Assembly: GCA_905193725.1 (NCBI GenBank)
Contig: CAJJPW010000003.1
Location: 1-30,753, forward strand
Source: an uncultured Eubacteriales bacterium
GTDB taxonomy: Bacteria; Bacillota; Clostridia; Christensenellales; Christensenellaceae
Reading direction: 5' to 3'
DNA length: 30,753 bases
The notes under the pieces are model-generated. The model was not told where the DNA came from and did no database searches. It saw nothing but the letters and a program-made list of their open reading frames with translations. Shown here piece by piece: positions 18,468 to 30,753 of this stretch. Every line of letters starts with the position of its first letter. The stretch's first letter is position 1. The position numbers and the translations under genes were made by a program.

Positions 18468-21400
18468 AAACCATGCAGTATACACAAAAACAGCAGGCTG
18501 CCATTGGGGAGCGAGGGAAAAACATCTTGGTTTCCGCTGCCGCAGGCTCGGGAAAGACCAGCGTGCTCAGTGAACGCATCGCCCGCTTGGTAGAACAGGG
18601 GGCGGACATCAAAAACATGCTGGTGTGCACCTTCACCAACTTGGCGGCAGGGGAGATGAAGGAGAGGATATACAGAAGGCTGATGGAGCTGGCAGAGCAA
18701 AAGGAGGATCCCAGATTATATGCCCAGGCAGAAAGGGCGCTGCAAGCGGATATCTGCACCATCCACAAGTTCACCATCTCTGTGATTCAACAAAACCTTC
18801 TGCTCACAGACCTGAAGACAAACGTGAGAATTGCGGTGGGCAAAGAGGTGGATATTTTAAAGGCCCAGGCCATGGAGCAGGCGCTAGAAGAGCTGTGTGA
18901 GCGGCAAGAGGAAGGCGTTTCCCAGCTATATGCCAAATACTGCAAGAAAGACGACCGACCCATCGTGCAGATGGCCATGCAGATATACAATTTTATCATG
19001 AGCAAAGAACACCCTTTAGAATGGCTGGAGCAGGCACAGCAGCTGAGCCCTCAAACTCAGGAGGAGTACTTTGGGGCATACCGGAGCCATGTGGTGCAGA
19101 TACTGTATCGAGCAAAGGGGGACTTTGAACAGTCCCTAGCACTGAGCAGCAAAAAGGGGTATGATGCACAGCGCCAGATCGATGAGGCTCATCTGGCACT
19201 CACAGAAGGGTGGCTGGAACTGGCGCGCCAGGGTGAGTTTGACGCGTTAAAATCCCAACTGGGCAGCGCCAAGTTTCGACCCATTGCCAGAGGTATCCCA
19301 GAAGAGGCGGACAAAAAGAAACTCTCGGGCTGGAAATCGGATGCCAAAAAACAGGTGGACAGTCTGCAAAACCTGATGACAGAGCAGGAACTTTTGGAGC
19401 AAATCAAAGGGGATTATGAGGAGGTCAAAGGGGATATCTGTGGGCTCACCAGCATCATTCATGGGTTCCACGAGGCATTTCAAAAGCTCAAACGGGAGAA
19501 AAACATCATCGACTACGATGACATGCTCCATATTGCCTATCAAATCCTGTCCAGCGGAGAGGGAAACTTTGATGTGGCAAAAAGCTATCAGCAGAAATAC
19601 GATTATATCTTCGTAGATGAGTATCAGGATACCAACGGCATTCAAGAGGCAATTTTACAGGCCATTAGCCGGGGGAACAACATGTTCATGGTGGGTGATA
19701 TGAAGCAGAGCATCTACAAATTTCGCCTGGCAGATCCGTCTATCTTTTTGGGAAAGGCCAAACAATATGGCACAGGCGAGGGACAGAGCAGGCTCATCAA
19801 CATGAACGAGAACTTCCGCTGTTCCAAAAGCGTGGTGGACTTTATTAACGGGTTGATGGGCAAAGTCATGTCACCCCAGGTGGGAGAAATCAGCTATGGC
19901 GTGGAAGAGGCGCTGGTTTGGTCGGGCAGAGAAAAGGGAGCGTGTAAGCTCAGCTTAGCCTTGGGCAAACGGGGAGCCTTAAAGGAGGAGACAGAGGCAG
20001 CCCTCATCGCCGGAGAAATCAAGGCCCTGTTGGGAAAAGATTTTTTTGACGAAAAAAGGGGGGAGACTCGCCCTCTGGCCTTTGGAGATTTTTGCATTAT
20101 CATGCGCACGGCAAATCGCCATGGGGAAGTGTACAAAAGGGTGTTGCAGCAGCAGGGGATTCCTGTGAGGACACTATTTGAAGCGCAGGAAGATGACCCC
20201 TATATTGAGGTGTTTGTCAATCTGCTCAGATTGGTGGACAATCCCTATCGGGATATTGAGCTGCTCAGCGTCATGCGTTCCTTTATTGGAGGCTTTGACG
20301 AGAGGGATTTTGCGCAGATTCGCCTAGTGGATGGAGAAAAGACTTTTGCACAGACGTTTTTCTCCAATGATTCTTTTGGAGATCCTGTGCTGGATCAAAA
20401 GGCCGCTAAGCTCAAAAACACCCTAAGTGAATTTTCCCTTTACGCACAGACACTGCCGGTGAAGGAGACGCTGCTGAAGATCAAGACGCTCACCCATTTT
20501 GACGCGTATTTATGTGCCCTGCCTGGAGGAGCAGTGCGCCTGGCTGCCTTTGATTCGTTTATTAAGATGTGTCTTAGCATCAACGACGATCGGATTGAGA
20601 ACTTTTATGCCTTTATCGAGTTCTTGCAGGAGTATAAGAAGAACATTGGCAAATACGTGGAGACAGTACAACTGGAAGAGGAGAGAGATGCGGTGCGCAT
20701 TCTCACCGTACACGCCAGCAAAGGGCTGGAGTTTCCCGTGGTGTTCGTCTCCCGTCTACAGGGGAAGTACAACACCAGAGATTTTGATAAGGAACTCCTC
20801 GTCCACGATACGATGGGCATAGGCATCAAGTGGAAAGATGTACAGCGCCATGTGGCAAAGGACACATGGCAGAGAAAGTTGATCGCCATGCGTCTAACGC
20901 AAGAACTAAAATCCGAGAGCTTACGGGTGCTGTATGTGGCCCTCACCAGAGCACGGCATACTCTGATTTTGACAGGTGTAGTAGATCAACTGCCAGATGA
21001 GATTCGCTATGGTAGGCCGCTAAGTGAGGAGGCGGTGCTATCCATGAACAACTGGCTGGATTTGGTGCTCCGGTGGGGCCGGGGAGAAAACCAGCTGGGG
21101 CCAGATGGACTATTGCCTTTGGAGATGCAAGGGGAAGAGCTAGGAGGGGAGATCGCAGAGGAAAAAGTTTCTTCTAATATAAATATACTCAAAAAAGCAG
21201 CAGAGGAATCGCAAGCAGATGCGCTAGCTAAAATCACATTTGTCAAAGTACCACGCACCATGACAGTGAGCGAGTTAAAGCAGAGTATGCAGACAAGGCA
21301 TTGGCTGATAAAAAGTGGAGATATGACCATGGACAGCCGGCGAGAAGATGCGATGGATGCCAAGGAACTTTGGCCGGTTCCCCAGTGGAGCGTTCAAGAA

Positions 21401-21958
21401 GAGCAGCGATCCCAAGATGTGTTGGAAGAACAGAGTGCAGCCCACGGCGTTGGGTGGAGCGCGACCCAAAGGGGCAGCGGGTTACACCGAGTATTGGAGG
21501 TTTGGAACTTTGCAGACCAGGATATCCCTATGCAAATAGAAAAGCTGTGGAAGGCGGGCAAGATCACCTCTTTAGAAAGAGACATCGCCCGAAAAGAGCT
21601 GCCTTTGCTAGAGTGGTTTTTACACAGCGATATGGCCAGGCGCATTGCCAGCAGTAAAAAAGTGCTCAGAGAGCAGCCCTTTAAGCTATGGGATGTGGCT
21701 AGCTCGTTTGGCTATGAGTCCCACGATAAGATCATAGTACAGGGGGTCATCGACCTGGCCTTTTGGGAACAGGGGGAAATCATACTGCTAGATCACAAGA
21801 CAGATCGAGTGGGGCAAGAGGCACTGGCAGAGAGGGTGGCCTATTACCGACCGCAGGTGGAGTATTATGCCAAGGCGTTACAGGAGATCACCGGCTGCCG
21901 GGTCAAGGAAAAACACCTCAATTTTATCAGCTGCAAAAAACTGGTGCATTTAGAATAA
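18464..21958 (+). CDS. addA: ATP-dependent helicase/nuclease subunit A
   Basis: A 1164-residue UvrD-type superfamily 1 helicase with a C-terminal RecB-type nuclease, the motor subunit of AddAB. Seen motifs are AAAGSGKT (Walker A, 25-32), DEYQDTN (Walker B, about 385), GDMKQSIYKFR, LTVHASKGLEFPVVF and VALTRARHTL. The nuclease has VIDLAFW (~1096) and the catalytic DHKTD (~1110). The start is GTG at 18464, overlapping the addB stop (GTGA), with GGAGGG three bases upstream. The ATG at 18473 is an alternative with longer spacing. Coupled translation with addB fits a heterodimer made in equal amounts. A terminator follows within ten bases of the stop. Confidence 0.96.
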   Translation: MKTMQYTQKQQAAIGERGKNILVSAAAGSGKTSVLSERIARLVEQGADIKNMLVCTFTNLAAGEMKERIYRRLMELAEQKEDPRLYAQAERALQADICTIHKFTISVIQQNLLLTDLKTNVRIAVGKEVDILKAQAMEQALEELCERQEEGVSQLYAKYCKKDDRPIVQMAMQIYNFIMSKEHPLEWLEQAQQLSPQTQEEYFGAYRSHVVQILYRAKGDFEQSLALSSKKGYDAQRQIDEAHLALTEGWLELARQGEFDALKSQLGSAKFRPIARGIPEEADKKKLSGWKSDAKKQVDSLQNLMTEQELLEQIKGDYEEVKGDICGLTSIIHGFHEAFQKLKREKNIIDYDDMLHIAYQILSSGEGNFDVAKSYQQKYDYIFVDEYQDTNGIQEAILQAISRGNNMFMVGDMKQSIYKFRLADPSIFLGKAKQYGTGEGQSRLINMNENFRCSKSVVDFINGLMGKVMSPQVGEISYGVEEALVWSGREKGACKLSLALGKRGALKEETEAALIAGEIKALLGKDFFDEKRGETRPLAFGDFCIIMRTANRHGEVYKRVLQQQGIPVRTLFEAQEDDPYIEVFVNLLRLVDNPYRDIELLSVMRSFIGGFDERDFAQIRLVDGEKTFAQTFFSNDSFGDPVLDQKAAKLKNTLSEFSLYAQTLPVKETLLKIKTLTHFDAYLCALPGGAVRLAAFDSFIKMCLSINDDRIENFYAFIEFLQEYKKNIGKYVETVQLEEERDAVRILTVHASKGLEFPVVFVSRLQGKYNTRDFDKELLVHDTMGIGIKWKDVQRHVAKDTWQRKLIAMRLTQELKSESLRVLYVALTRARHTLILTGVVDQLPDEIRYGRPLSEEAVLSMNNWLDLVLRWGRGENQLGPDGLLPLEMQGEELGGEIAEEKVSSNINILKKAAEESQADALAKITFVKVPRTMTVSELKQSMQTRHWLIKSGDMTMDSRREDAMDAKELWPVPQWSVQEEQRSQDVLEEQSAAHGVGWSATQRGSGLHRVLEVWNFADQDIPMQIEKLWKAGKITSLERDIARKELPLLEWFLHSDMARRIASSKKVLREQPFKLWDVASSFGYESHDKIIVQGVIDLAFWEQGEIILLDHKTDRVGQEALAERVAYYRPQVEYYAKALQEITGCRVKEKHLNFISCKKLVHLE

Positions 21959-21964
21959 AAGAGG

Positions 21965-21985
21965 TGGGGAAAAGTCCCCATTTTT
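21965..21985 (+). terminator. Intrinsic terminator after addA
   Basis: TGGGGA (21965-21970) pairs with TCCCCA (21975-21980) around AAAG, followed by five T. The last T is also the first base of a DnaA box. Confidence 0.85.
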
Positions 21986-22199
21986 GTGGATAACTTTGTG
22001 GATAACCCAAAGAAAGGTGCATATATAGAAGAGGCCTTTAGAGGAAAAAGATAAAATAAGAATGTAACAGTGAAGATGAAAATGGATTTTATCATAAAAT
22101 ATAGGATCACAGCAGGGTACAAAAATAAATTGGGTACATGGTGATTGAATGCAAGTTATCCACAATTTGTGTGGAAAACCTGTGGATTTGTGTGGATAA
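21985..22199. promoter_or_regulatory. Cluster of DnaA boxes between addA and cotH
   Basis: Four perfect copies of the 9-mer TTATCCACA or its complement: 21985-21993 (-), 21997-22005 (-), 22156-22164 (+) and 22191-22199 (-). TTTTCCACA (22170-22178, -) also fits the TTWTNCACA consensus, and a weaker box is at 22181-22189 (-). They form two groups flanking about 150 bases of AT-rich DNA without genes. Boxes within groups are 10-12 bases apart, about one helical turn. This pattern is typical of DnaA-binding regions: an origin element, a DnaA-titrating site or a DnaA-regulated promoter. The cotH promoter lies 46 bases beyond the last box. No dnaA or dnaN is in the window. Confidence 0.75.
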
Positions 22200-22244
22200 T
22201 AGGGAATATTTACAAAAGATTCATAAGTTACAAGGAATATTTTG

Positions 22245-22273
22245 TTGAGAAGTGTACTTAGGCATGGTACAAT
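22245..22273 (+). promoter_or_regulatory. Promoter of the cotH-VTC-DUF4956 operon
   Basis: TTGAGA (22245-22250), exactly 17 bases, TACAAT (22268-22273). Predicted start is near 22280, giving a leader of about 24 bases that contains GAGGAG (22288-22293). Confidence 0.7.
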
Positions 22274-22303
22274 GTTGAAAGTATATTGAGGAGTTGATCG
22301 ACT

Positions 22304-25297
22304 TTGAATAAAAAAGGCAAATTCATATTCATCATTATATGCGCGGCATTATTGGTGGGTGTTATCATATATGCAATCAATGACCAGGCAAAAAATGACA
22401 ATTTGGAGGGGCGAGAGGAAAAAGGTCTGCTGACCATTACTGAGGTCATGCCTTCCAATAAGGGAGTGCTCCCGGATGAAAAGGGAGAGTACCCCGACTG
22501 GATAGAGGTGTACAATCCAACAGATGATCCCATTAATCTCTCGGGTTATGGCCTTTCTGATGACAATCAGTCTTACGCCAAATGGGTGTTCCCGAACGTC
22601 GAACTGGCGCCCAAGAGCTATTATGTGGTCTATGCTTCAGGCACTGCATCGACTAGCGATACAGGAGGGTATCCTCATGCGGGCTTCAAACTCAAGTCGG
22701 CGGGGGAAACGGTGTATCTCACGAACACAAGGGGCCAATTAGTAGATAGTCTGGAATTTGGAAGCGTGGGTGCCAATCAATCTTATGCAAAGAACTTAGA
22801 GTCGGGAGAATGGGCAGTTACCGATATGCCCACACCGGGCTTTGAAAATACCGAGGCAGGATATGCGGCGTTTAAAGACAGCTTAAAGGTGGAGAATTCC
22901 CCGATTATCGTCACAGAAGTGATGTCCTCTAATGGCTCGACCTTGGCAGATTCGCTGGGCCTTTATGAAGACTGGATAGAGATCTATAATCGCTCGGATG
23001 AAACGGTAAACTTAGAAGGCTATGGGCTATCTGACGACCCTGATGATATGCTGGCGTGGAAGTTCCCGGCTGTGGAACTGGGGCCAGGCGAGTACCTGGT
23101 GGTCTTTGCATCGGGTCAGGATATTGCAGAGGGAGATGAGCTCCACACCAATTTCAGGCTCTCCTCTTATAAGGAGACAGTAGTGCTCGCCAATCAAAGA
23201 GGTTTAGAGCTGGATAGCGTATCTGTGCCCACCTTGAAATCCGATACCGTATATGCAAGGGAAGTCCTAGAGGACGGCTCTTATGGAGATAACTTTGGCA
23301 TTTCTGCCACCCCAACTCCTGGCTTGGTAAACACTATGGAGGGATTTCAGCAGTTTGAACAGAGCAGTGGATCCGTCCAGACAGGAGCCGTGAGCATTAG
23401 CGAAGTCATAACGGGAAACTCCCAATATGCACAGGAAAGCAATGGAGAGTATTATGACTTAATCGAACTGCACAACAACTCCTCCCAAGCGGTAGACATT
23501 TCTGGCTATTCCTTGACGACCAACCCCCAAAACCCCGCCATGTGGAGATTCCCCCAGGGAACGACCATTGAAGCAGGAGGATATCTCTTGGTACAGGCTT
23601 CAGGGCTGGGAGATACGGAAGAAGGGCAGGAGATGCAGAATGTGCACACCAACTTTAGGCTCAGTGGAGAAGGGGAAGTGCTAGCACTTTTTAACAGTCA
23701 AGACCAATTGCAAGACCGCCTATTTATCCCATCTCTGCCCCAGAATGTGTCCTATGGCAAAATGGATGGGCAAACGGGCTCTTATTACTTTGCCACTCCA
23801 ACACCTTTGGCGGCAAACCAAGATCCAAGCCTTGGGTATGCTGTAGCCCCCGAACTCTCACTTGAGGGGGGCCTATATGGGGGTACTCAAACGGTGAGTT
23901 TAAGTGCCACAGATGGGGAAATATACTACACTTTAGATGGCAGCACGCCGACCACTTCGTCTCAAAAATACACAGGGGCGTTGACCATTAGTGAGACGAC
24001 AAAGCTGCGCGCTAGAGTGTTTAAAGATGGCTATCTGCCCAGTACAACCACAACGGCTACCTATATCATCAACGACGATCACACCCTTCCTGTGGTTTCG
24101 CTGGTGACTGACGATAAATATCTGTTTAGCGAAGAAGAGGGAATTTACTATGGGGAGGAATTGGAGCACGGCGTGCCGGATCCAAACGCTAACTACTACC
24201 AAGACTGGGAAGTTCCTGCCCACTTTGAATACATGGAAGACGGGAAAACGGTGTTTTCACAGGATATTGGCCTAAAGATCTTTGGGGCGTATTCCCGCTC
24301 AGAACCGCAAAAATCCTTCTCCATATTTGCCAGAAGTGAATATGGCGAGGATACATTGGCCTATCCATTTTTTGATGATCTGCCATATCAGGAATACAAG
24401 TCCATCGTGTTGCGGTGTTCCGGCCAAGATCGATATATGACAAAAGTACGGGATGTGACCATGACCAGTTTGATGGGGGAAAACACAGATCTAGCGGTGC
24501 AAGCTTATAAGACCTGTGTGGTATACCTCAATGGAGAGTACTGGGGCGTATATCACATCAGAGAGAAGATCAACAAGTACTATCTCTCCCAGCATTATAA
24601 TGTGCCCATAGAGGATATCGATCTTTTGGTGGGCAATGGGACGGCCCTCGTCGGCAGCAATGAGGATTACAAAAAGATGCTGGAGTTTTTGGAGACCCAT
24701 TCTCTCAAGGACCCGGAAAATTATGAGTATATCAAAACCCAAATGGACGTGGAAAACTACATGGATTACGTCATTGCGGAAATCTACTTCTCCAATTCTG
24801 ATCTGGGAAATATCAAATTCTGGCGAGACCGCAATGGGGGCAAATGGCAGTGGATTTTGTATGACCTAGATTGGGGAATGTTTAAGCTGGATAGAGATGG
24901 AGTAGCCGCTCACTTAAATCCTGAAGGTATGGGCGTAAATCTGGGATTTTCTACCCTCATATTCCGCAGTCTCATTCAAAATGACGAATGGAAGCAGATG
25001 TTTTTAGAGCGGTTTGCCTATCATTTGGAAAACACCTTCTCTGAGGAAAAGGTGGTGGCTCGGGCTGACGAGATTACAGCGACGCTCATCGATGAGCTCC
25101 CCAGAGAAAAGGAGAAGTTCGGCGGCACTATGAGAAACTACGAGTTGCATATGCAGAGATTTAAGGAATATGCGGCCAAAAAGCCCACTGTCATCCTCTA
25201 TGAGTTGCAGACCAATCTGGGATTAAGCGATGATGAGATGATCGAGATCTTTGGGAAGACAGGCAAAAGTGCAGAGGAAGTCGGCTGGAGTTTCTAA
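22304..25297 (+). CDS. CotH-type kinase with three lamin-tail domains and a chitobiase-like domain
   Basis: A 997-residue protein starting at TTG (GAGGAG ten bases upstream). A basic N terminus and one hydrophobic helix (7-25) without lipobox make it a membrane-anchored surface protein. Three lamin-tail repeats follow (about 42-180, 200-340 and 362-500), each opening with ITEVM/SEVI-type strands, then a DWIEVYN-like segment, GYGLSDD and an HxxFxL-type end. A chitobiase C-terminal-type domain (about 515-590) carries YYTLDGSTPT. The CotH kinase domain (about 593-905) has GLKIFGAYSR (656-665), Lys670, NGEYWGVYHIREKIN (743-757) and YDLDWGM (853-859), likely including metal/catalytic Asp residues. 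In Bacillus, CotH phosphorylates spore coat proteins. The extra domains suggest cell-surface or polymer binding. The substrate is unknown. It is first in an operon with the VTC and DUF4956 genes. Confidence 0.88.
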   Translation: MNKKGKFIFIIICAALLVGVIIYAINDQAKNDNLEGREEKGLLTITEVMPSNKGVLPDEKGEYPDWIEVYNPTDDPINLSGYGLSDDNQSYAKWVFPNVELAPKSYYVVYASGTASTSDTGGYPHAGFKLKSAGETVYLTNTRGQLVDSLEFGSVGANQSYAKNLESGEWAVTDMPTPGFENTEAGYAAFKDSLKVENSPIIVTEVMSSNGSTLADSLGLYEDWIEIYNRSDETVNLEGYGLSDDPDDMLAWKFPAVELGPGEYLVVFASGQDIAEGDELHTNFRLSSYKETVVLANQRGLELDSVSVPTLKSDTVYAREVLEDGSYGDNFGISATPTPGLVNTMEGFQQFEQSSGSVQTGAVSISEVITGNSQYAQESNGEYYDLIELHNNSSQAVDISGYSLTTNPQNPAMWRFPQGTTIEAGGYLLVQASGLGDTEEGQEMQNVHTNFRLSGEGEVLALFNSQDQLQDRLFIPSLPQNVSYGKMDGQTGSYYFATPTPLAANQDPSLGYAVAPELSLEGGLYGGTQTVSLSATDGEIYYTLDGSTPTTSSQKYTGALTISETTKLRARVFKDGYLPSTTTTATYIINDDHTLPVVSLVTDDKYLFSEEEGIYYGEELEHGVPDPNANYYQDWEVPAHFEYMEDGKTVFSQDIGLKIFGAYSRSEPQKSFSIFARSEYGEDTLAYPFFDDLPYQEYKSIVLRCSGQDRYMTKVRDVTMTSLMGENTDLAVQAYKTCVVYLNGEYWGVYHIREKINKYYLSQHYNVPIEDIDLLVGNGTALVGSNEDYKKMLEFLETHSLKDPENYEYIKTQMDVENYMDYVIAEIYFSNSDLGNIKFWRDRNGGKWQWILYDLDWGMFKLDRDGVAAHLNPEGMGVNLGFSTLIFRSLIQNDEWKQMFLERFAYHLENTFSEEKVVARADEITATLIDELPREKEKFGGTMRNYELHMQRFKEYAAKKPTVILYELQTNLGLSDDEMIEIFGKTGKSAEEVGWSF

Positions 25298-25364
25298 CCA
25301 CAGTGTAAGACGATAAATTGCGCTTTGATCAAGCTGGAATGGAGGAAAATAGGGAGCGACAAAA

Positions 25365-26855
25365 ATGGCGAGAAAATTAGGCAAGGGCAGGCCCTATGAT
25401 AAGGACTTGTTCAAAAATATAGATAGACAGTCCAGGCAGCACAAACACGATGCTGGCTCTAGGACGGATAGAACGCGCTATGGGCAGTGGGATAACCAAA
25501 TACAGCCTAGCTATCAAGTGAAAACGAGAAAGTTTGACACCTCCAATGAGGACGATTTATCTTTCCTATATGAAAATCGGCCCATGCGGCGCACGCTTCC
25601 CCAAGAAGAACCAGAGCCCAAAGAATGGGAGCTAGATCTTTCTGTGGAAAAAAGCCCTACGAGAACATTGGATGAGGGCTGGCAGATAGAGGATAAAGAT
25701 GAAATAGAAGAGGCTGATAAGCCACGGCATACGGCTAGAAGAGTTGACGTGGAGCCAGAGCTGGATTTCTCTATGGCCAACCAGAGGCCGCCCAAACGAG
25801 CGGAGCAAATGCAAGAAAGGATGAGTGCAGCCAGCCAGGAGGAGCATGAACTGCAGTGGCAGCCGCCTAAAAGACAGCCGGCAAGAAGAGTGTTGACCCG
25901 AGTAGAGCCATACGAGGACGATGGGTTAGATACTGTGCATCGCCGACCAGCAGCGGCCAATGGAGTGAGAAAGAGCGAGCGCGTCCCTGTACAGAGAACA
26001 GGAATGGAAGCGCACCGATATCCTACAGAGAATAGAAAGAGGGCCTCCAGAGAGATGGGAGGGCTGAATACCCACAGTGAGGGGCGGGTGAGAGCGCCCA
26101 GGCAGGGAGTTGCCCCAGGACATCCGCGGCAGATCGGCAGCGTACAAGGGACAAAAAAGAAAGGAGCGAAACTGACCTTTCGCCATGAGCTGAAGTATTA
26201 TATCAACTACCGAGACTACTATACGCTCAGGGCTTGTCTCAAAGGCCTACTCAAAAGTGACGCTAACAGCGACGACCAAGGCTCGTACCACATTAGAAGC
26301 CTGTATTTTGACGACAGAAACGAGACGGCACTCTCAGAGAAATTACAGGGAGTGAATTTTAGAAAAAAATATCGCATACGGATCTACAATCTGAGCGATC
26401 ATAAGATCAGCTTTGAAAAGAAGATCAAAAAGGGGCAGTTTATTGCCAAACAGTCCTTTCCCCTCACGAGAGAGGAGTATGATCGGATTTTAGCAGGAGA
26501 TTATGATTTCCTACTAGATAGAAAAGAACCACTGGCCCGTGAGGTATATACCGAGATGCGGGTAAAAGGGCTTAAGCCCAAAGTAATTGTGGACTATATC
26601 CGGGAAGCCTACGTGTATCCCGTAGGAAATGTCCGCATCACCTTTGATAAGGACCTCTGCAGCGGGGTGATGACAGAGGGAAATATGTTCGGTGATCACG
26701 TGCCCATGATGCCCATGCTGGATACAGGGCTTATGGTGCTGGAGATTAAATTTAATAACATTTTACCGGATTTTATCAAAGGGGTGCTCAACTCGCTCAA
26801 CTCGCCGGCGAGATCGGCGATATCAAAATATGTTATCTGCAGAAAATACGATTAA
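25365..26855 (+). CDS. VTC-domain (polyphosphate polymerase-type) protein with long disordered N terminus
   Basis: A 496-residue protein. Residues 1-265 are low-complexity, rich in Arg, Glu, Pro and Gln, with no predicted helix bundle or signal peptide. Residues 269-495 form a VTC domain of the CYTH-like tunnel fold that makes polyphosphate from ATP in yeast Vtc4. The basic tunnel residues are kept: RHELKYYI (273-280), YFDD (314-317), KYRIRIY (335-341), FEKKIK (350-355), VDYIREAY (409-416), RITFD (424-428), the metal-ligand Glu in LEIKF (459-463) and SAISKY (484-489). It is therefore probably catalytic. AGGGAG lies eight bases before the ATG. The gaps are 67 bases after cotH and 46 bases before the DUF4956 membrane gene. 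The polymer product is inferred from the family, not shown. Confidence 0.88.
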   Translation: MARKLGKGRPYDKDLFKNIDRQSRQHKHDAGSRTDRTRYGQWDNQIQPSYQVKTRKFDTSNEDDLSFLYENRPMRRTLPQEEPEPKEWELDLSVEKSPTRTLDEGWQIEDKDEIEEADKPRHTARRVDVEPELDFSMANQRPPKRAEQMQERMSAASQEEHELQWQPPKRQPARRVLTRVEPYEDDGLDTVHRRPAAANGVRKSERVPVQRTGMEAHRYPTENRKRASREMGGLNTHSEGRVRAPRQGVAPGHPRQIGSVQGTKKKGAKLTFRHELKYYINYRDYYTLRACLKGLLKSDANSDDQGSYHIRSLYFDDRNETALSEKLQGVNFRKKYRIRIYNLSDHKISFEKKIKKGQFIAKQSFPLTREEYDRILAGDYDFLLDRKEPLAREVYTEMRVKGLKPKVIVDYIREAYVYPVGNVRITFDKDLCSGVMTEGNMFGDHVPMMPMLDTGLMVLEIKFNNILPDFIKGVLNSLNSPARSAISKYVICRKYD

Positions 26856-26901
26856 CTGCATTGGGATATAAAGCTTGTGTTGAAAAATTAGGGAGGTCAT
26901 T

Positions 26902-27576
26902 ATGGGAACTGATACGACTACAAATAGCATACTAGATAGCTTTAAGCTCACAGGGGATATTGATATTACCCGGGTGATTATAACGCTAGCGCTATCCTTT
27001 CTCATCGGTATTTTTGTCTATCTCATATATAAGCGCACGTTTACCGGAGTACTTTTTGTCAAGGGATTTGGCACATCCCTCATCATGTTATGCATGGTGA
27101 CATCTACCATTATACTGACGATAACCACCAACCTGATGCTTTCTCTAGGTATGGTAGGTGCGCTATCTATCGTGCGTTTCAGAACAGCGGTAAAGGATCC
27201 AATGGATACCATCTACATGTTCTGGGCCATTGCAGCGGGCATCACGATTGGCGCTCAGCTGTATACTGTTGCCATCTTAACCAGCTTAGGTATTGGCGTA
27301 TTGATGCTCATTGTCTCCATGTTCAAGATGAAAAAGACAATGCCTTATTTATTGGTAGTTCGTTTTGAGGATTATGCAAAACGGGAAGTGCAAATGTTAC
27401 TCAAACAGCTACCTCAGGGAAGACTCAAGGCAAAGACAGTATCTGGAGATATCATTGAGTTGACCATTGAGATGAATATCAAGGAATCTGAGGCAAATGT
27501 AGTGGATAGATTTGTGGGCATTGAAGGAGTGCTGGATGCTTCGCTCATCAGTTACTCTGGAGATGTGGTAAGCTAA
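26902..27576 (+). CDS. DUF4956 integral membrane protein
   Basis: A 224-residue protein with three to four predicted membrane helices (about 22-43, 57-79 and one or two in 104-140) and a soluble C-terminal domain (about 148-224) of mixed strands and helices. The conserved DUF4956 core is LGMVGALSIVRFRTAVKDPMD (about 82-102), an Arg-rich loop between helices. The family function is unknown. It commonly neighbours VTC-domain and CotH genes, as here, so it is probably their membrane partner. By analogy with the Vtc1 membrane subunit of yeast it might form a polymer channel, which is inference. GGGAGG lies before the ATG. A terminator follows eleven bases after the stop. Confidence 0.88.
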   Translation: MGTDTTTNSILDSFKLTGDIDITRVIITLALSFLIGIFVYLIYKRTFTGVLFVKGFGTSLIMLCMVTSTIILTITTNLMLSLGMVGALSIVRFRTAVKDPMDTIYMFWAIAAGITIGAQLYTVAILTSLGIGVLMLIVSMFKMKKTMPYLLVVRFEDYAKREVQMLLKQLPQGRLKAKTVSGDIIELTIEMNIKESEANVVDRFVGIEGVLDASLISYSGDVVS

Positions 27577-27587
27577 TGAATCATCTG

Positions 27588-27615
27588 ATGGGCAGCAGAG
27601 AGCTGCCCATTTTTT
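27588..27615 (+). terminator. Intrinsic terminator after DUF4956 gene
   Basis: ATGGGCAGC (27588-27596) pairs perfectly with GCTGCCCAT (27602-27610) around a five-base loop, followed by a T-run to 27615. It lies only 25 bases before the MBL gene start. Confidence 0.93.
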
Positions 27616-27640
27616 GACTATTCAAAAAGAGGTGTCTAGT

Positions 27641-28384
27641 GTGGAACGACAACGAGCATTGGTATATTATTTGGATCACAGCGGCTTTGCCGTAAAAATC
27701 AATCAAAACATGCTGATCTTCGACTATATTGGCCGGCATGCAAAGCCACAGGCTGGGTTAGCGGATGGCATTTTGGAAAGGCAGATATGGCAAGGGGTGC
27801 AAAACACCTATGTGTTTGCCAGCCACAACCATGGGGACCACTTTCAACCAGGTATCTTTCAGCTGAAAGATTACGCAGATAACACAGTGTTTATCTTGGA
27901 TAGAGATATCCCGACAAAAAAAGGTTTGGACTGTATTTCGGTGTGCAAGGGAGATGTGGTGCAAAGGGATAATATGGTTGTCACAGTATGTGGCTCTACG
28001 GACATTGGAAGCAGTTTTTTTGTGGATATAGGCGGCTGGAAGCTCTTCCACGCGGGGGATTTAAATTGTTGGCATTGGCAGGGAGAGGCGGATGAACGCT
28101 ATATGCAAGAAGCTAGGATGGACTTTGCTAGAGAGCTTGCCTATGTAAAGCAACAGCAAAAAGGAACGTTGGATATCGGCTTTTTCCCAGTAGATGACCG
28201 GATGGAAGGCGTCTATTATGAGGGGGCAGACGCGTTTATTCGCCAACTTCAGCCACGGCACTTTTTTGCCATGCATTTTTGGGGGAGATATCAGGTGCAG
28301 AAGAAGTTAGAGGCTCAGAAATATCCTGACACGCAAATTCATACAATAGACAAAAAAGGAGAGAAATTTGTCATAGAAAAATAG
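27641..28384 (+). CDS. MBL-fold metallo-hydrolase
   Basis: A 247-residue cytoplasmic protein of the metallo-beta-lactamase superfamily. The zinc motif HNHGDH is at 62-67, with a further ligand in HAGDLN (D140) and a late His in MHFWGRY (H212), so a two-metal site is complete. The overall form resembles UlaG-like or RNase Z-like single-domain hydrolases, and the substrate cannot be told. I choose GTG at 27641, with GAGGTG six bases upstream. The longer frame from TTG at 27614 starts inside the terminator T-run and is rejected. With the terminator so close and no promoter in between, it is probably expressed by read-through of the cotH operon or from a promoter inside the DUF4956 gene. Confidence 0.85.
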   Translation: MERQRALVYYLDHSGFAVKINQNMLIFDYIGRHAKPQAGLADGILERQIWQGVQNTYVFASHNHGDHFQPGIFQLKDYADNTVFILDRDIPTKKGLDCISVCKGDVVQRDNMVVTVCGSTDIGSSFFVDIGGWKLFHAGDLNCWHWQGEADERYMQEARMDFARELAYVKQQQKGTLDIGFFPVDDRMEGVYYEGADAFIRQLQPRHFFAMHFWGRYQVQKKLEAQKYPDTQIHTIDKKGEKFVIEK

Positions 28385-28428
28385 ACTGGTCTTTCAGGAA
28401 CGGGATAGCTGAAGTAGTTTACAAAATA

Positions 28429-28469
28429 TTTACATGGGGATATTTATTTTTGGCGCGAAACCATGTAAA
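28429..28469. repeat. 9-bp inverted repeat upstream of the membrane zinc-ribbon gene
   Basis: TTTACATGG (28429-28437) and CCATGTAAA (28461-28469) are perfect inverted arms separated by 23 bases, so the half-site centres are 32 bases apart, about three helical turns. AT-rich sequence just after it (TATTAT, 28471-28476) could be a -10 box. A regulator operator is possible. Confidence 0.45.
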
Positions 28470-28533
28470 ATATTATCATGTCTAACGATAGACGACATGG
28501 AAATGTTGAGAAAGATAGAGGCGAGGAGGCAAC

Positions 28534-28920
28534 ATGTTTCGCAGATTTATGGCGGGGAGGAATGGCCCGGACTACCTGAGTTTAGGAGTCATGATATTGG
28601 CGCTCATTATGAGCATCATCCCAGGGCTGGTATTTCGGATTATTTCACTGCTCCTGATGGGTTATGCGCTGTTTCGCATTTTTTCTAAAAATGTCTACAA
28701 GCGACAATCAGAAAATTACAAGTTTTATTCTTTTATCAAGTCGTTTGTAGACAAGTTTAAGATGTGGGGATATAAAATCAAAAACAGGATCACTCAGGGT
28801 AAGATTTATCGGTTTTATCAATGCCCAAATTGCAAACAAAAAGTTCGCGTACCCAAGGGAAAGGGGAAAATATCCATCACCTGCCCAAAATGTGGCACAA
28901 AATTTGTGAAAAAGACTTGA
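28534..28920 (+). CDS. Small membrane protein with C-terminal zinc ribbon
   Basis: A 128-residue protein. Two adjacent membrane helices (about 15-30 and 31-50) form a hairpin. A basic linker (51-92) follows, then a zinc ribbon with C97, C100, C117 and C120 (CPNC and CPKC). The N and C termini are most likely cytoplasmic. Proteins of this type are common in clostridia, but I know of no assigned function. A GAGGAGG site lies five bases before the ATG. It stands alone between the MBL gene and the DUF1858 gene. The promoter is not clear, but an inverted repeat and AT-rich DNA lie about 60-100 bases upstream. Confidence 0.8.
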   Translation: MFRRFMAGRNGPDYLSLGVMILALIMSIIPGLVFRIISLLLMGYALFRIFSKNVYKRQSENYKFYSFIKSFVDKFKMWGYKIKNRITQGKIYRFYQCPNCKQKVRVPKGKGKISITCPKCGTKFVKKT

Positions 28921-29015
28921 TAATTGGAAAAAAATGCTTTATAGTTAGTAACTATTACGAGCCGGTTATCTATAATAAAACAGGAAATATTATTGAAATG
29001 AGAGGATGAATACCA

Positions 29016-29222
29016 ATGGCTAAGATTACAAAAGATATGAGGATTATTGATGTTCTACACATGGACCAAGAGTGTGCCCCCATCTTTTTTGAATTTGGGA
29101 TGCACTGCATTGGCTGCCCTTCTGCTTCGGGAGAGGCACTAGAAGAGGCGTGCATGGTACATGGCATTGATGCAGATCAATTAGTCGCAAAGCTAAACGA
29201 ATACTTTGAAAACAAAAAATAA
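29016..29222 (+). CDS. DUF1858 domain protein with CxxC redox motif
   Basis: A 68-residue cytoplasmic protein consisting of one DUF1858 domain: ITKDMRIIDVLHM, then the CIGC motif at residues 31-34 followed by PSASGEALEEACMVHGID. The family occurs alone or fused to hybrid-cluster and iron-sulfur repair (RIC/ScdA) proteins and is thought to take part in thiol or iron-sulfur redox chemistry. GAGAGGA lies nine bases before the ATG. A TATAAT-like element is at 28971-28976, but no good -35 box accompanies it. The following rubredoxin and flavodiiron genes support an oxygen or nitric oxide defence setting. A GC-rich hairpin without a T-run (29250-29274) follows the gene. Confidence 0.85.
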   Translation: MAKITKDMRIIDVLHMDQECAPIFFEFGMHCIGCPSASGEALEEACMVHGIDADQLVAKLNEYFENKK

Positions 29223-29291
29223 AATCGCCATGTGAAGTGCGGCGAAAAGAGAGGCGGGAGAAAGCTCTGCCTCTGGCAAAAAAATGTTTAA

Positions 29292-29351
29292 AAATCCTCC
29301 TTTGGGTTATATCTAAGATATATTTAGTGAACCTTAAAGGAGGGTTTTTTT
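29292..29351 (+). promoter_or_regulatory. Hairpin and T-run that bury the rubredoxin ribosome binding site
   Basis: The left arm 29292-29308 pairs with 29330-29347, including CCTCCTTT with AAAGGAGG, and seven T follow (29345-29351). The right arm contains AAAGGAGG (29336-29343), the rubredoxin ribosome binding site. The loop itself contains a TATATC-TAA-GATATA palindrome (29308-29322). For transcripts from upstream this is a terminator and a translation block. For transcripts starting inside the loop the site would be free. Confidence 0.7.
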
Positions 29352-29352
29352 G

Positions 29353-29511
29353 ATGGACAAATATGTATGTGATATTTGTGGTTATGTGTACGACCCAGAG
29401 GTAGGCGACCCAGATAACGGGATTGCTCCTGGCACCAGCTTTGAAGATATTCCTGAAGATTGGCTTTGCCCACTATGTGGAGCTGGCAAGGACGTGTTCT
29501 CTCAGGAGTAA
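29353..29511 (+). CDS. Rubredoxin
   Basis: A 52-residue one-iron electron carrier, normal length for the family. The four iron ligands are C6 and C9 ([15 protein letters not shown]) and C39 and C42 (CPLCGA), with the typical [18 protein letters not shown] centre. It passes electrons from NAD(P)H-rubredoxin reductase to flavodiiron proteins and rubrerythrins in anaerobes. AAAGGAGG lies nine bases before the ATG. It is 30 bases upstream of fprA on the same strand, with no terminator between, so the two are co-transcribed. The hairpin at 29292-29347 covers its ribosome binding site. Confidence 0.97.
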
Positions 29512-29541
29512 TCGAGTAGAGAATAGCTGGAGGTTTTCGGA

Positions 29542-30726
29542 ATGCATGCAGAAAAGGTAAAAGATGGAATCTATTGGGTCGGGGCACTGAATCCGGACCT
29601 GAGAAGATTTGATGTCATTATGAAAACCCGATGGGGCACTTCGTACAATAGCTACTTGATAAAGGGGAGCGAAAAAGTCGCGCTAGTAGATGTGGTAAAG
29701 GAAAAATATGCAGAAGAGCATATTGCCCACATTAGCGAATTAGTAGATCCCGCTAAGATTGACTATATTATCAGCAATCACACAGAACCAGATCATTCCG
29801 GTTCATTGGCGAAGCTATTGGCGGTTGCCAGAAATGCTACGGTGGTATGCAGTAAAGTGGCCCATGGCTTTCTAAAGAACATCACCAACTTGGATTTTAC
29901 ATGCATGGAAGTGGGCGATGGAGATAAGCTGGATTTAGGTGGAAAAACGCTGGAGTTTTTAAGCGTCCCGTTTTTGCATTGGCCGGACTCCATCTTTACT
30001 TATGCCAGAGAGGATAAAATGTTATTCTCGGGGGATATGTTTGGATTCCATTTCGCGGCAGAAAAGGTTTTTGACGATTTAACCATGCTGGACGATGAAA
30101 TGGTGAAATCTCAAAAATACTACTTTGACGTGATTATGAGCCCGTTTAAATCCTATGTGCTAGAGGCAGTAGAAAAGCTCAAAAACCTATCCATTGAGAT
30201 CATTGGGCCGTCCCATGGACCGGTGCTGCGAGGCGACCCTCAAGGCGCGGTAGAGCGGTATTATGAATGGGCCAAAGACAGTTTAAGTGAAAACAACCCT
30301 AGAAAAGCATATGTGGGATATGTATCTTGCTATGGTTATACGAAAAAACTGGCAGAAAAGGTCTATGAGGGAATGATAAAAAATGGACTTAGTGCAGAAA
30401 TTGAGGACATTTCTCTCATCACTCCAGGAGAAGCTGCTCAAAAATTACAAGAGGCAGACGTGTTTGCCATTGGCACACCTACGGTCAATCGGGATGCATT
30501 AAAGCCCATTTGGGATGTAGCTAGTCTATTATGCTCTTATGTAATGAAGGGGAAGCGCTGCGGAGTATTTGGTTCATTTGGATGGAGCGGCGAGGGTGTT
30601 AAGTTTATAAAAGAGAGACTATCTAACCTAGGCGTTAAGGTGGAGGACACCTTGTCCGTCAAGTTTAATCCCACAGAAGATGATTTGCAAAGAGCCTATG
30701 AACTGGGAGAACTTTTGAGTAAATAG
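29542..30726 (+). CDS. fprA: Flavodiiron protein (O2/NO reductase, FprA type)
   Basis: A 394-residue cytoplasmic enzyme reducing O2 to water, and in some members NO to N2O, with electrons from rubredoxin. The N-terminal metallo-beta-lactamase-like diiron domain (1-250) has the HxExDH motif (H80, E82, D84, H85), H146 in FLHWPDS, D165 in FSGDMFG and H225 in GPSHGP, so all iron ligands are present. The C-terminal flavodoxin domain (about 255-394) binds FMN, with its phosphate loop at SCYGYTKK and a GTPTVNRDALKP loop. Length is that of class A enzymes with no extra C-terminal domain. GGAGG lies eight bases before the ATG. It is the second gene of the rubredoxin operon and ends 27 bases before the window end. 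Confidence 0.96.
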   Translation: MHAEKVKDGIYWVGALNPDLRRFDVIMKTRWGTSYNSYLIKGSEKVALVDVVKEKYAEEHIAHISELVDPAKIDYIISNHTEPDHSGSLAKLLAVARNATVVCSKVAHGFLKNITNLDFTCMEVGDGDKLDLGGKTLEFLSVPFLHWPDSIFTYAREDKMLFSGDMFGFHFAAEKVFDDLTMLDDEMVKSQKYYFDVIMSPFKSYVLEAVEKLKNLSIEIIGPSHGPVLRGDPQGAVERYYEWAKDSLSENNPRKAYVGYVSCYGYTKKLAEKVYEGMIKNGLSAEIEDISLITPGEAAQKLQEADVFAIGTPTVNRDALKPIWDVASLLCSYVMKGKRCGVFGSFGWSGEGVKFIKERLSNLGVKVEDTLSVKFNPTEDDLQRAYELGELLSK

Positions 30727-30753
30727 AAAAAATATTAAAAAGTAAATGCGAAT

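Follow-up and report, generated by a model that had tools for sequence, protein, structure and literature searches.

A VTC-type protein and an MgtC-like DUF4956 membrane protein are paired in a conserved bacterial module with CotH kinase as an exchangeable partner

The stretch of DNA analysed here (the window; 30,753 nt, positions 1 to 30,753 of contig CAJJPW010000003.1) originates from an uncultured Eubacteriales bacterium of the Christensenellaceae and contains three co-directional open reading frames (ORFs) for a CotH-type kinase, a protein of the VTC polyphosphate-polymerase type and a DUF4956 protein (Table 1). The ORFs form one operon in this order, with intergenic gaps of 67 and 46 bases. 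A previous sequence-only reading had described three genes in one direction with these gaps and a strong terminator, and this is borne out by the ORFs and by a hairpin of ten pairs, which has the longest stem among the 11 hairpins in positions 20000-30753 (9.2 +/- 2.7 were expected). The same reading had proposed one promoter. The corresponding site is well placed, ending 30 bases 5' of the start codon, and matches the consensus at 10 of 12 positions. However, 21 promoter-like sites were observed in the same region and 16.8 +/- 4.6 were expected; since this number is not above chance, we regard the site as a consensus match only. The domains named earlier were clear also in our analysis, with Pfam matches to CotH, VTC and DUF4956. 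We found that the trio is an instance of a conserved, widespread bacterial module, in which VTC and DUF4956 are strictly paired and CotH is an exchangeable, not an obligate, partner.

Table 1. Features of the CotH-VTC-DUF4956 operon and of the sequence downstream (positions refer to the window)
Feature	Position	Strand	Basis
Promoter-like site TTGAGA-17-TACAAT, TG before the second hexamer	22245..22273	+	consensus match only
CotH-type kinase, 997 amino acids (aa), TTG start	22304..25297	+	ORF and Pfam
Top-scoring of three lamin tail domains (LTDs), residues 40-152	22421..22759	+	Pfam
CHB_HEX_C_1 domain, residues 521-584	23864..24055	+	Pfam
CotH kinase domain, residues 657-962	24272..25189	+	Pfam
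VTC polyphosphate-polymerase-type protein, 496 aa	25365..26855	+	ORF and Pfam
N-terminal tail before the VTC domain, 271 residues, no Pfam match	25365..26177	+	
VTC tunnel domain, residues 272-493	26178..26843	+	Pfam
DUF4956 protein, 224 aa	26902..27576	+	ORF and Pfam (E 9.6e-10)
Predicted transmembrane part of DUF4956, residues 22-145	26965..27336	+	predicted helices and alignment
Predicted ACT-like beta-alpha-beta-beta-alpha-beta domain of DUF4956, residues 146-217	27337..27552	+	model
Intrinsic-terminator-like hairpin at the operon end	27587..27611	+	10 pairs (6 G-C) and T-run
Metallo-beta-lactamase-fold gene (Lactamase_B_3), beyond the terminator	27614..28384		Pfam
Protein with ODP-family lactamase and flavodoxin domains	29542..30726		

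A survey of gene neighbourhoods, which had been suggested along with the sequence-only reading, revealed co-occurrence far beyond chance. In an independent even draw of 199 genomes from one phylum, searched with Pfam models, VTC and DUF4956 were present in exactly the same 27 genomes, with 34 copies each (26 of 198 genomes without G001, the centre of the draw, which had been chosen as a carrier of the module). The two genes lie within 5 kb on one strand in 33 of the 34 pairs, and the remaining pair is located on the ends of two contigs. In a second group of genomes, treated as another phylum, both families were found in the same two of nine genomes, with the matches 155 and 204 bases apart, and in the control genomes in the same three of 14. 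One of the controls with the families is Corynebacterium glutamicum. Neither family occurred without the other in any genome of the three sets. We consider the pairing of VTC with DUF4956 as near certain.

The gene order was compared at 80 genome loci, which are the best-scoring matches of the VTC profile among those listed and therefore lean to Bacillota and to this subfamily. DUF4956 is present at 79 and CotH at 75 of these loci. At each of the 80, all detected families share one strand, although their order varies (with C, V and D for CotH, VTC and DUF4956: VDC 32, CVD 27, CDV 11, VD 5, CCVD 4 and CV 1). Neighbouring frames are at most 251 bases apart at 79 loci and 1,234 bases apart at one (L059). 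Further, both Pfam domains were detected in nine of the 120 matches listed for a joined probe. Four of these chains are complete, P0244, P0246 and P0247 in the order DUF4956-VTC and P0245 in the order VTC-DUF4956. Together with the co-occurrence, these one-chain fusions uphold the earlier view of VTC and DUF4956 as a unit. A CotH-VTC chain (P0254) was also seen and may be an artefact.

The window VTC protein belongs to the VTC domain family, with an E-value of 6.7e-42 and 144.1 bits against a cut-off of 23. This domain is its sole Pfam match, and an SPX domain was not found in its 496 aa. Many close relatives of 340-550 aa likewise exceed the length of the domain; tail-less VTC forms of about 230 aa are common among the other matches. 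When PDB sequences were searched with the VTC profile, six Vtc4 sequences and nothing else were matched at E up to 0.01, and a single-sequence search with the window protein gave no match. The profile matches Vtc4 residues K200, R264, R266, K281, K294, Y359, R361 and R373, which we take to be the active site, and the window counterparts of these eight residues are invariant in 81 of 81 VTC sequences. In all, K277, R337, R339, K353, K362, Y411, R413, R424, E460, K462 and K488 are invariant in this set and S487 is conserved in 80 sequences; E460, K462, S487 and K488 presumably have likenesses in Vtc4, too. Judged from these residues, polymerase activity of the VTC protein is likely.

The structural model of the DUF4956 protein (predicted local distance difference test, pLDDT, 79.3; predicted template modelling score, pTM, 0.60) comprises five long helices, which we read as putative transmembrane helices, and a C-terminal beta-alpha-beta-beta-alpha-beta domain. 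The residues R92, R94, K98, P100 and D102 between helices 3 and 4 form a motif present in 78 of 78 sequences. According to the positive-inside rule this motif would be cytosolic, and it is a candidate docking or polyanion site. Among the PDB matches of the C-terminal model are the MgtC domains 2lqj and 7qa5 and many other ACT-like folds. VIA-align covered the C-terminal part alone, so that the membrane fold was barely tested against PDB structures. A single-sequence PDB search with DUF4956 gave no match, and the PDB sequence search with its profile gave one weak, unrelated match. The closest other relatives of the window protein are five proteins with 96-99% identity.

Relatedness to MgtC emerged from profile comparisons. 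At E up to 10, the Pfam MgtC model weakly matches 15 of 22 DUF4956 proteins (best 9.4e-5, window protein 2.6), and the window protein scores 8.9 bits, which is below the gathering score of the MgtC family (PF02308; 31.4 bits). The NapD model matches the DUF4956 C-terminus in 21 of the 22 proteins (best E 0.0017). In hhalign, DUF4956 and a profile of 30 MgtC proteins aligned with 96.6% (E 4.8e-10) over 187 columns, which span the membrane and the C-terminal parts; the membrane part alone reached 86.4% and the C-terminal part alone 39.1%. The controls gave 11.5% for the reversed profile, at most 1.0% for 20 shuffles and at most 0.5% for five other families. These comparisons place DUF4956 in the MgtC-related superfamily, as a remote MgtC homologue with a predicted ACT-like C-terminal domain. 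With the MgtC/SapB/YhiD membrane proteins it has in common this domain and the membrane core; MgtC was found in 49 of 61 genomes, whereas DUF4956 was seen solely with VTC. The sequence-only reading had likened DUF4956 to the yeast subunit Vtc1, and this likeness had to be given up: DUF202, which we take to be the family of Vtc1, matched none of the 22 DUF4956 proteins at E up to 10 in a filtered search and was over the cut-off in just three of 149 genomes, and homology to MgtC was found instead. Thus, the window proteins share with the yeast VTC complex (Vtc4/Vtc3/Vtc1) the VTC tunnel domain, the mapped residues and, as seen with a fused relative, the fold. They differ from it by the lack of SPX and by an MgtC-like membrane partner with no DUF202 match.

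The CotH-type kinase contains an N-terminal hydrophobic segment, three LTDs, a CHB_HEX_C_1/Fn3_assoc region and the CotH domain, which with E 3.9e-44 and 151.9 bits is a member of the CotH family. In an alignment of 85 CotH domains (columns at least 70% filled), G748, D833 and D854 are identical in every row with a letter at the position, and E754 and N831 are conserved in 99%. The CotH profile aligned to the solved CotH structure 5jd9 with E 2.4e-37, including the N-x-D and D-x-D stretches, the residues of which are presumably catalytic; a single-sequence PDB search with the window kinase yielded weak, non-CotH matches only. Hence the residues of both enzymes look intact, as had been noted before: the Vtc4 positions are matched and invariant, and the CotH positions align with 5jd9. 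Compared to the CotH spore-coat kinase (5jd9), with which it shares the CotH domain, the window protein has additional LTDs and is encoded next to VTC and DUF4956. An N-terminal hydrophobic segment was detected in 75 of 75 CotH ORFs by a lenient test without control, after four of 79 ORFs cut by a contig start had been dropped.

How tightly CotH is linked to the pair was evident from the genome draw. CotH was over the cut-off in 27 of the 199 genomes, 24 of which are VTC genomes, and lies within 5 kb and on the same strand of 22 of the 34 VTC copies. The trio proposed earlier thus stands as a frequent arrangement, but not as an obligate one, since 12 of the 34 pairs are without CotH. The surroundings of all 12 contain a Cthe_2159 gene in seven cases, a gene for an LTD protein in four, and neither in one. 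The Cthe_2159 (PF14262) gene adjoins the pairs of L111, L112, L113, L114, L116, L117 and L118; of six starts inspected, five are lipoprotein-like and one is unclear. In the four LTD cases, the gene immediately downstream, in the same orientation, encodes the LTD protein, which has a signal-like start; three of the four are LRR-LTD proteins. The remaining pair (genome G025) has a histidine kinase gene upstream and UDG and MatE genes downstream. In one genome (G190), a CotH-bearing pair has Cthe_2159 also within 5 kb. Cthe_2159 was over the cut-off in 15 of the 27 VTC genomes versus two of the 172 others, and a CotH, Cthe_2159 or LTD gene adjoins 33 of the 34 pairs. The LTD is common to two of the partner kinds, because the window CotH itself carries three. 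Since most of the CotH-less pairs adjoin genes for Cthe_2159 or LTD proteins, we consider VTC and DUF4956 as the core, which is combined with an exchangeable exported partner. Among the flanking clusters, 0 and 8, which are represented by a response regulator and a histidine kinase, were left out of the partner count, and cluster 1 looks like an antisense artefact. In the portions of the open-licence literature available to us, we found no paper that deals with the pairing of VTC and DUF4956 itself or with Cthe_2159 or LTD proteins as partners of the pair. The accessible parts of PMC8250860 and PMC7356697 contain no VTC link for CotH, and PMC6514570 proved not relevant, VTC there meaning the Vms1 treble clef.

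Based on these observations, we propose that the VTC-DUF4956 pair is a membrane-bound polyphosphate synthase serving an exported partner, and give this reading as a whole a probability of roughly 0.5. VTC and DUF4956 would physically associate to a two-subunit membrane enzyme. In line with the conserved Vtc4 active site, the VTC tunnel domain would polymerise phosphate from ATP into polyphosphate at the cytosolic face. The MgtC-like DUF4956 would anchor VTC and regulate it through its cytosolic ACT-like domain, and it may pass or hand over the polymer at the membrane. The pair would serve the exported partner encoded in its neighbourhood, which here would be the LTD-CotH kinase, anchored in the membrane and directed at targets on the cell surface or in the matrix, and elsewhere a Cthe_2159 protein or another LTD protein; the functional link to CotH is putative. 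The proposal is supported by the strict co-occurrence in the sample, the one-chain fusions, the invariance of the Vtc4 residues, the adjacency of the partners, the export-type N-termini of the partners inspected and the one-strand loci. The fold speaks for it as well: with Foldseek, the best 13 PDB matches of a model of the fusion P0246 are chains of VTC complexes. Outward delivery of the polymer and its use by CotH are speculative. It is tempting to imagine a synthase-exporter made of a Vtc4-type catalyst and an MgtC-type subunit, the surface polymer of which would be a phosphate and energy source or a ligand of the partner: CotH would use polyphosphate rather than ATP to phosphorylate surface proteins or glycans, and the Cthe_2159 or LTD proteins would bind the polymer. 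We judge this extended scheme distinctly improbable.

A gene for a purple-acid-phosphatase-like protein was seen nearby at 17 of the 80 loci (L003, L004, L005, L008, L009, L012 and 11 more), one of them checked with Pfam. All 14 positions inspected are on the opposite strand, and a hydrophobic N-terminal segment was found in the six starts inspected. We count the presence of this gene at the 17 loci in favour of a synthase serving an exported partner.

The homology to MgtC, which spans the membrane and the ACT-like parts, is also compatible with polyphosphate being made by the pair and retained in the cytosol. Its coupling to ATP and phosphate homeostasis would then be the task of the MgtC-like subunit, and CotH would be co-regulated but mechanistically independent as a surface kinase. 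A role of MgtC in the control of ATP synthase and PhoR is cited in the accessible part of Raju 2025 (PMC12345266), and the absence of CotH within 5 kb of 12 of the 34 pairs points in the same direction. Such a cytosolic role is possible, but we hold it for rather unlikely, and it leaves unexplained why 33 of the 34 pairs adjoin a CotH, Cthe_2159 or LTD gene.

Several observations weigh against the proposed synthase with an exported partner. PPK1, the only polyphosphate kinase family searched, was found in ten of the 27 VTC genomes sampled and is missing from the other 17, compared to a presence in 20 of the 172 others. It is therefore commoner in VTC genomes (Fisher p 0.002); PPK1 is not replaced by VTC, and a mutual exclusion of the two was rejected. 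At two of the 80 loci (L002 and L011), a VTC-DUF4956 pair was seen and CotH was not, as far as can be said without a domain scan of the adjacent genes. The partner classes Cthe_2159 and LTD were recognised post hoc, LTD without a background rate. Five of the nine two-domain proteins (P0248, P0249, P0256, P0282 and P0301) are without a conserved part of one domain and may be artefacts. The complete fusions look like stop-codon losses between adjacent genes, because the linkers of P0245 and of P0244, P0246 and P0247 resemble translated ribosome-binding regions; the linkers of the latter three are alike, so these chains probably have one shared origin. The model of P0246 (pLDDT 85.8, pTM 0.55) has good domains and a linker with pLDDT below 50, and it predicts no confident domain arrangement. 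A polyphosphate assay of the pair was not found in the literature, as far as it was accessible. Finally, in Streptococcus intermedius, a strain deleted for the polymerase gene SIR_1593 continued to aggregate and to produce Pel, with no defect reported in the accessible text (PMC12345266).

The last observation comes from a locus in which, according to the part of Raju 2025 (PMC12345266) available to us, SIR_1592-1594 encode MgtC membrane plus ACT, polyphosphate polymerase and CotH domains, the MgtC-ACT reading of SIR_1592 having been made with four membrane segments. Upon deletion of SIR_1592 or SIR_1594, aggregation in one medium fell to less than half, and the Pel level changed (PMC12345266). 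The silent SIR_1593 deletion, set against these phenotypes, does not agree with a simple supply line from the polymer to CotH. In the accessible part of Whitfield 2020 (PMC7112168), cotH, polyphosphate polymerase, DUF4956 and DUF4832 are named as Pel accessory genes, and the two papers together suggest that SIR_1592 is a DUF4956 protein. The sequence-only reading knew of no described function for the trio; publications, however, present it as a set of Pel accessory genes with deletion phenotypes, and this and the MgtC-ACT reading of SIR_1592 were, going by the accessible text, already known. The streptococcal and clostridial accessory set (cotH, polyphosphate polymerase, DUF4956) comprises the same three families as the window trio. 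The window differs from it in having no adjoining pel genes, a CotH with three LTDs and a VTC with a 271-residue tail, and the core pair, unlike the accessory set, also occurs without CotH.

If the published role were general, the module would be a regulator of the Pel polysaccharide in Gram-positive bacteria, as proposed in the parts of Whitfield 2020 (PMC7112168) and Raju 2025 (PMC12345266) at hand. In line with this, 15 of the 80 loci have at least two pel genes within up to 10 kb on either side, and all 15 are CotH-first (CVD 11, CCVD 4) like the window. However, 11 further CVD loci have at least 5 kb of upstream sequence and no pel gene, and the profiles of PelF, PelD, PelA, PelE-like and PelG have no match in the window, where the operon is thus not contiguous with pelDEADAFG. 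PelG was over the cut-off in six of the 199 genomes and in two of the 27 VTC genomes, and beside the trio once, which is no significant association (Fisher p 0.19). Of the 74 trio loci, 15 have at least two pel genes and one (L041) has a PelF-like gene only; no pel gene was seen at 43 loci with at least 5 kb of upstream sequence and at 15 loci with a shorter upstream stretch. A general tie of the trio to Pel was rejected on the basis of the 43 pel-less loci and the PelG result, and a Pel-accessory function as the general role, already weakened, appears very improbable. The accessible text of Raju 2025 (PMC12345266) also states that synteny of the trio was not found outside Pel; as worded, this is contradicted by the 43 pel-less trio loci.

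Some trios are located in glycan clusters, in addition to the 15 at Pel loci. A plasmid search found the trio in two of 72,556 records, NZ_CP043029.1 (L119) and NZ_CP059541.1 (L120), in both beside glycosyltransferase genes; the former trio is in an exopolysaccharide-type cluster and the latter in a HEAT/GT2 cluster. NELoc-2 of Clostridium perfringens resembles NZ_CP059541 in that genes for VTC, CotH and a small membrane protein precede HEAT and glycosyltransferase genes, as far as can be seen from the accessible part of its description (PMC2879425). Its neighbours differ from those of the window, and the small membrane protein, which may be a DUF4956 protein, is annotated there as tubulin/FtsZ GTPase. 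Such surroundings would suit a VTC protein that does not make polyphosphate but, as a tunnel enzyme, acts on a different substrate by phosphate transfer or hydrolysis, such as an intermediate in surface-glycan assembly, the whole unit being an accessory of matrix modification. The SIR_1593 deletion, silent in aggregation in the accessible data (PMC12345266), would fit as well, and so would the fold, in so far as other tunnel-fold enzymes (ygiF, TTM3, thiamine triphosphatase and class IV cyclases) are also among the Foldseek matches of the P0246 model. Nevertheless, we consider another substrate unlikely, given that Vtc4 sequences are the sole PDB sequence matches of the VTC profile at E up to 0.01, that all eight mapped Vtc4 residues are kept throughout, and that 43 trio loci are pel-less over at least 5 kb upstream.

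Downstream of the terminator, the window contains a metallo-beta-lactamase-fold gene. Its listed TTG start is 3 bases 3' of the hairpin; translation may in fact begin at an in-frame GTG 27 bases after this TTG. We left this gene out of the module because it lies beyond the terminator and because no such family is present in the ten domain-scanned flanking clusters of the 80 related loci. The protein with ODP-family lactamase and flavodoxin domains encoded further downstream has an architecture which we take to be that of the flavodiiron proteins of many anaerobes.

The recognition of the VTC-DUF4956 core and its partners is important for several reasons. The trio loci without pel genes correct the published claim that synteny of the trio does not occur outside Pel loci. 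If the core pair does make polyphosphate, it would represent an unrecognised route to polyphosphate in bacteria without PPK1, with a membrane subunit unlike that of yeast. Further, the rule that a CotH, Cthe_2159 or LTD gene accompanies the pair provides a clue that can be tested for a module which until now has been regarded as a Pel accessory. It is also relevant to the source of phosphate for extracellular kinases. Should the pair indeed be a synthase-exporter with a polymer that CotH uses, it would provide an ATP-independent supply for extracellular phosphorylation.

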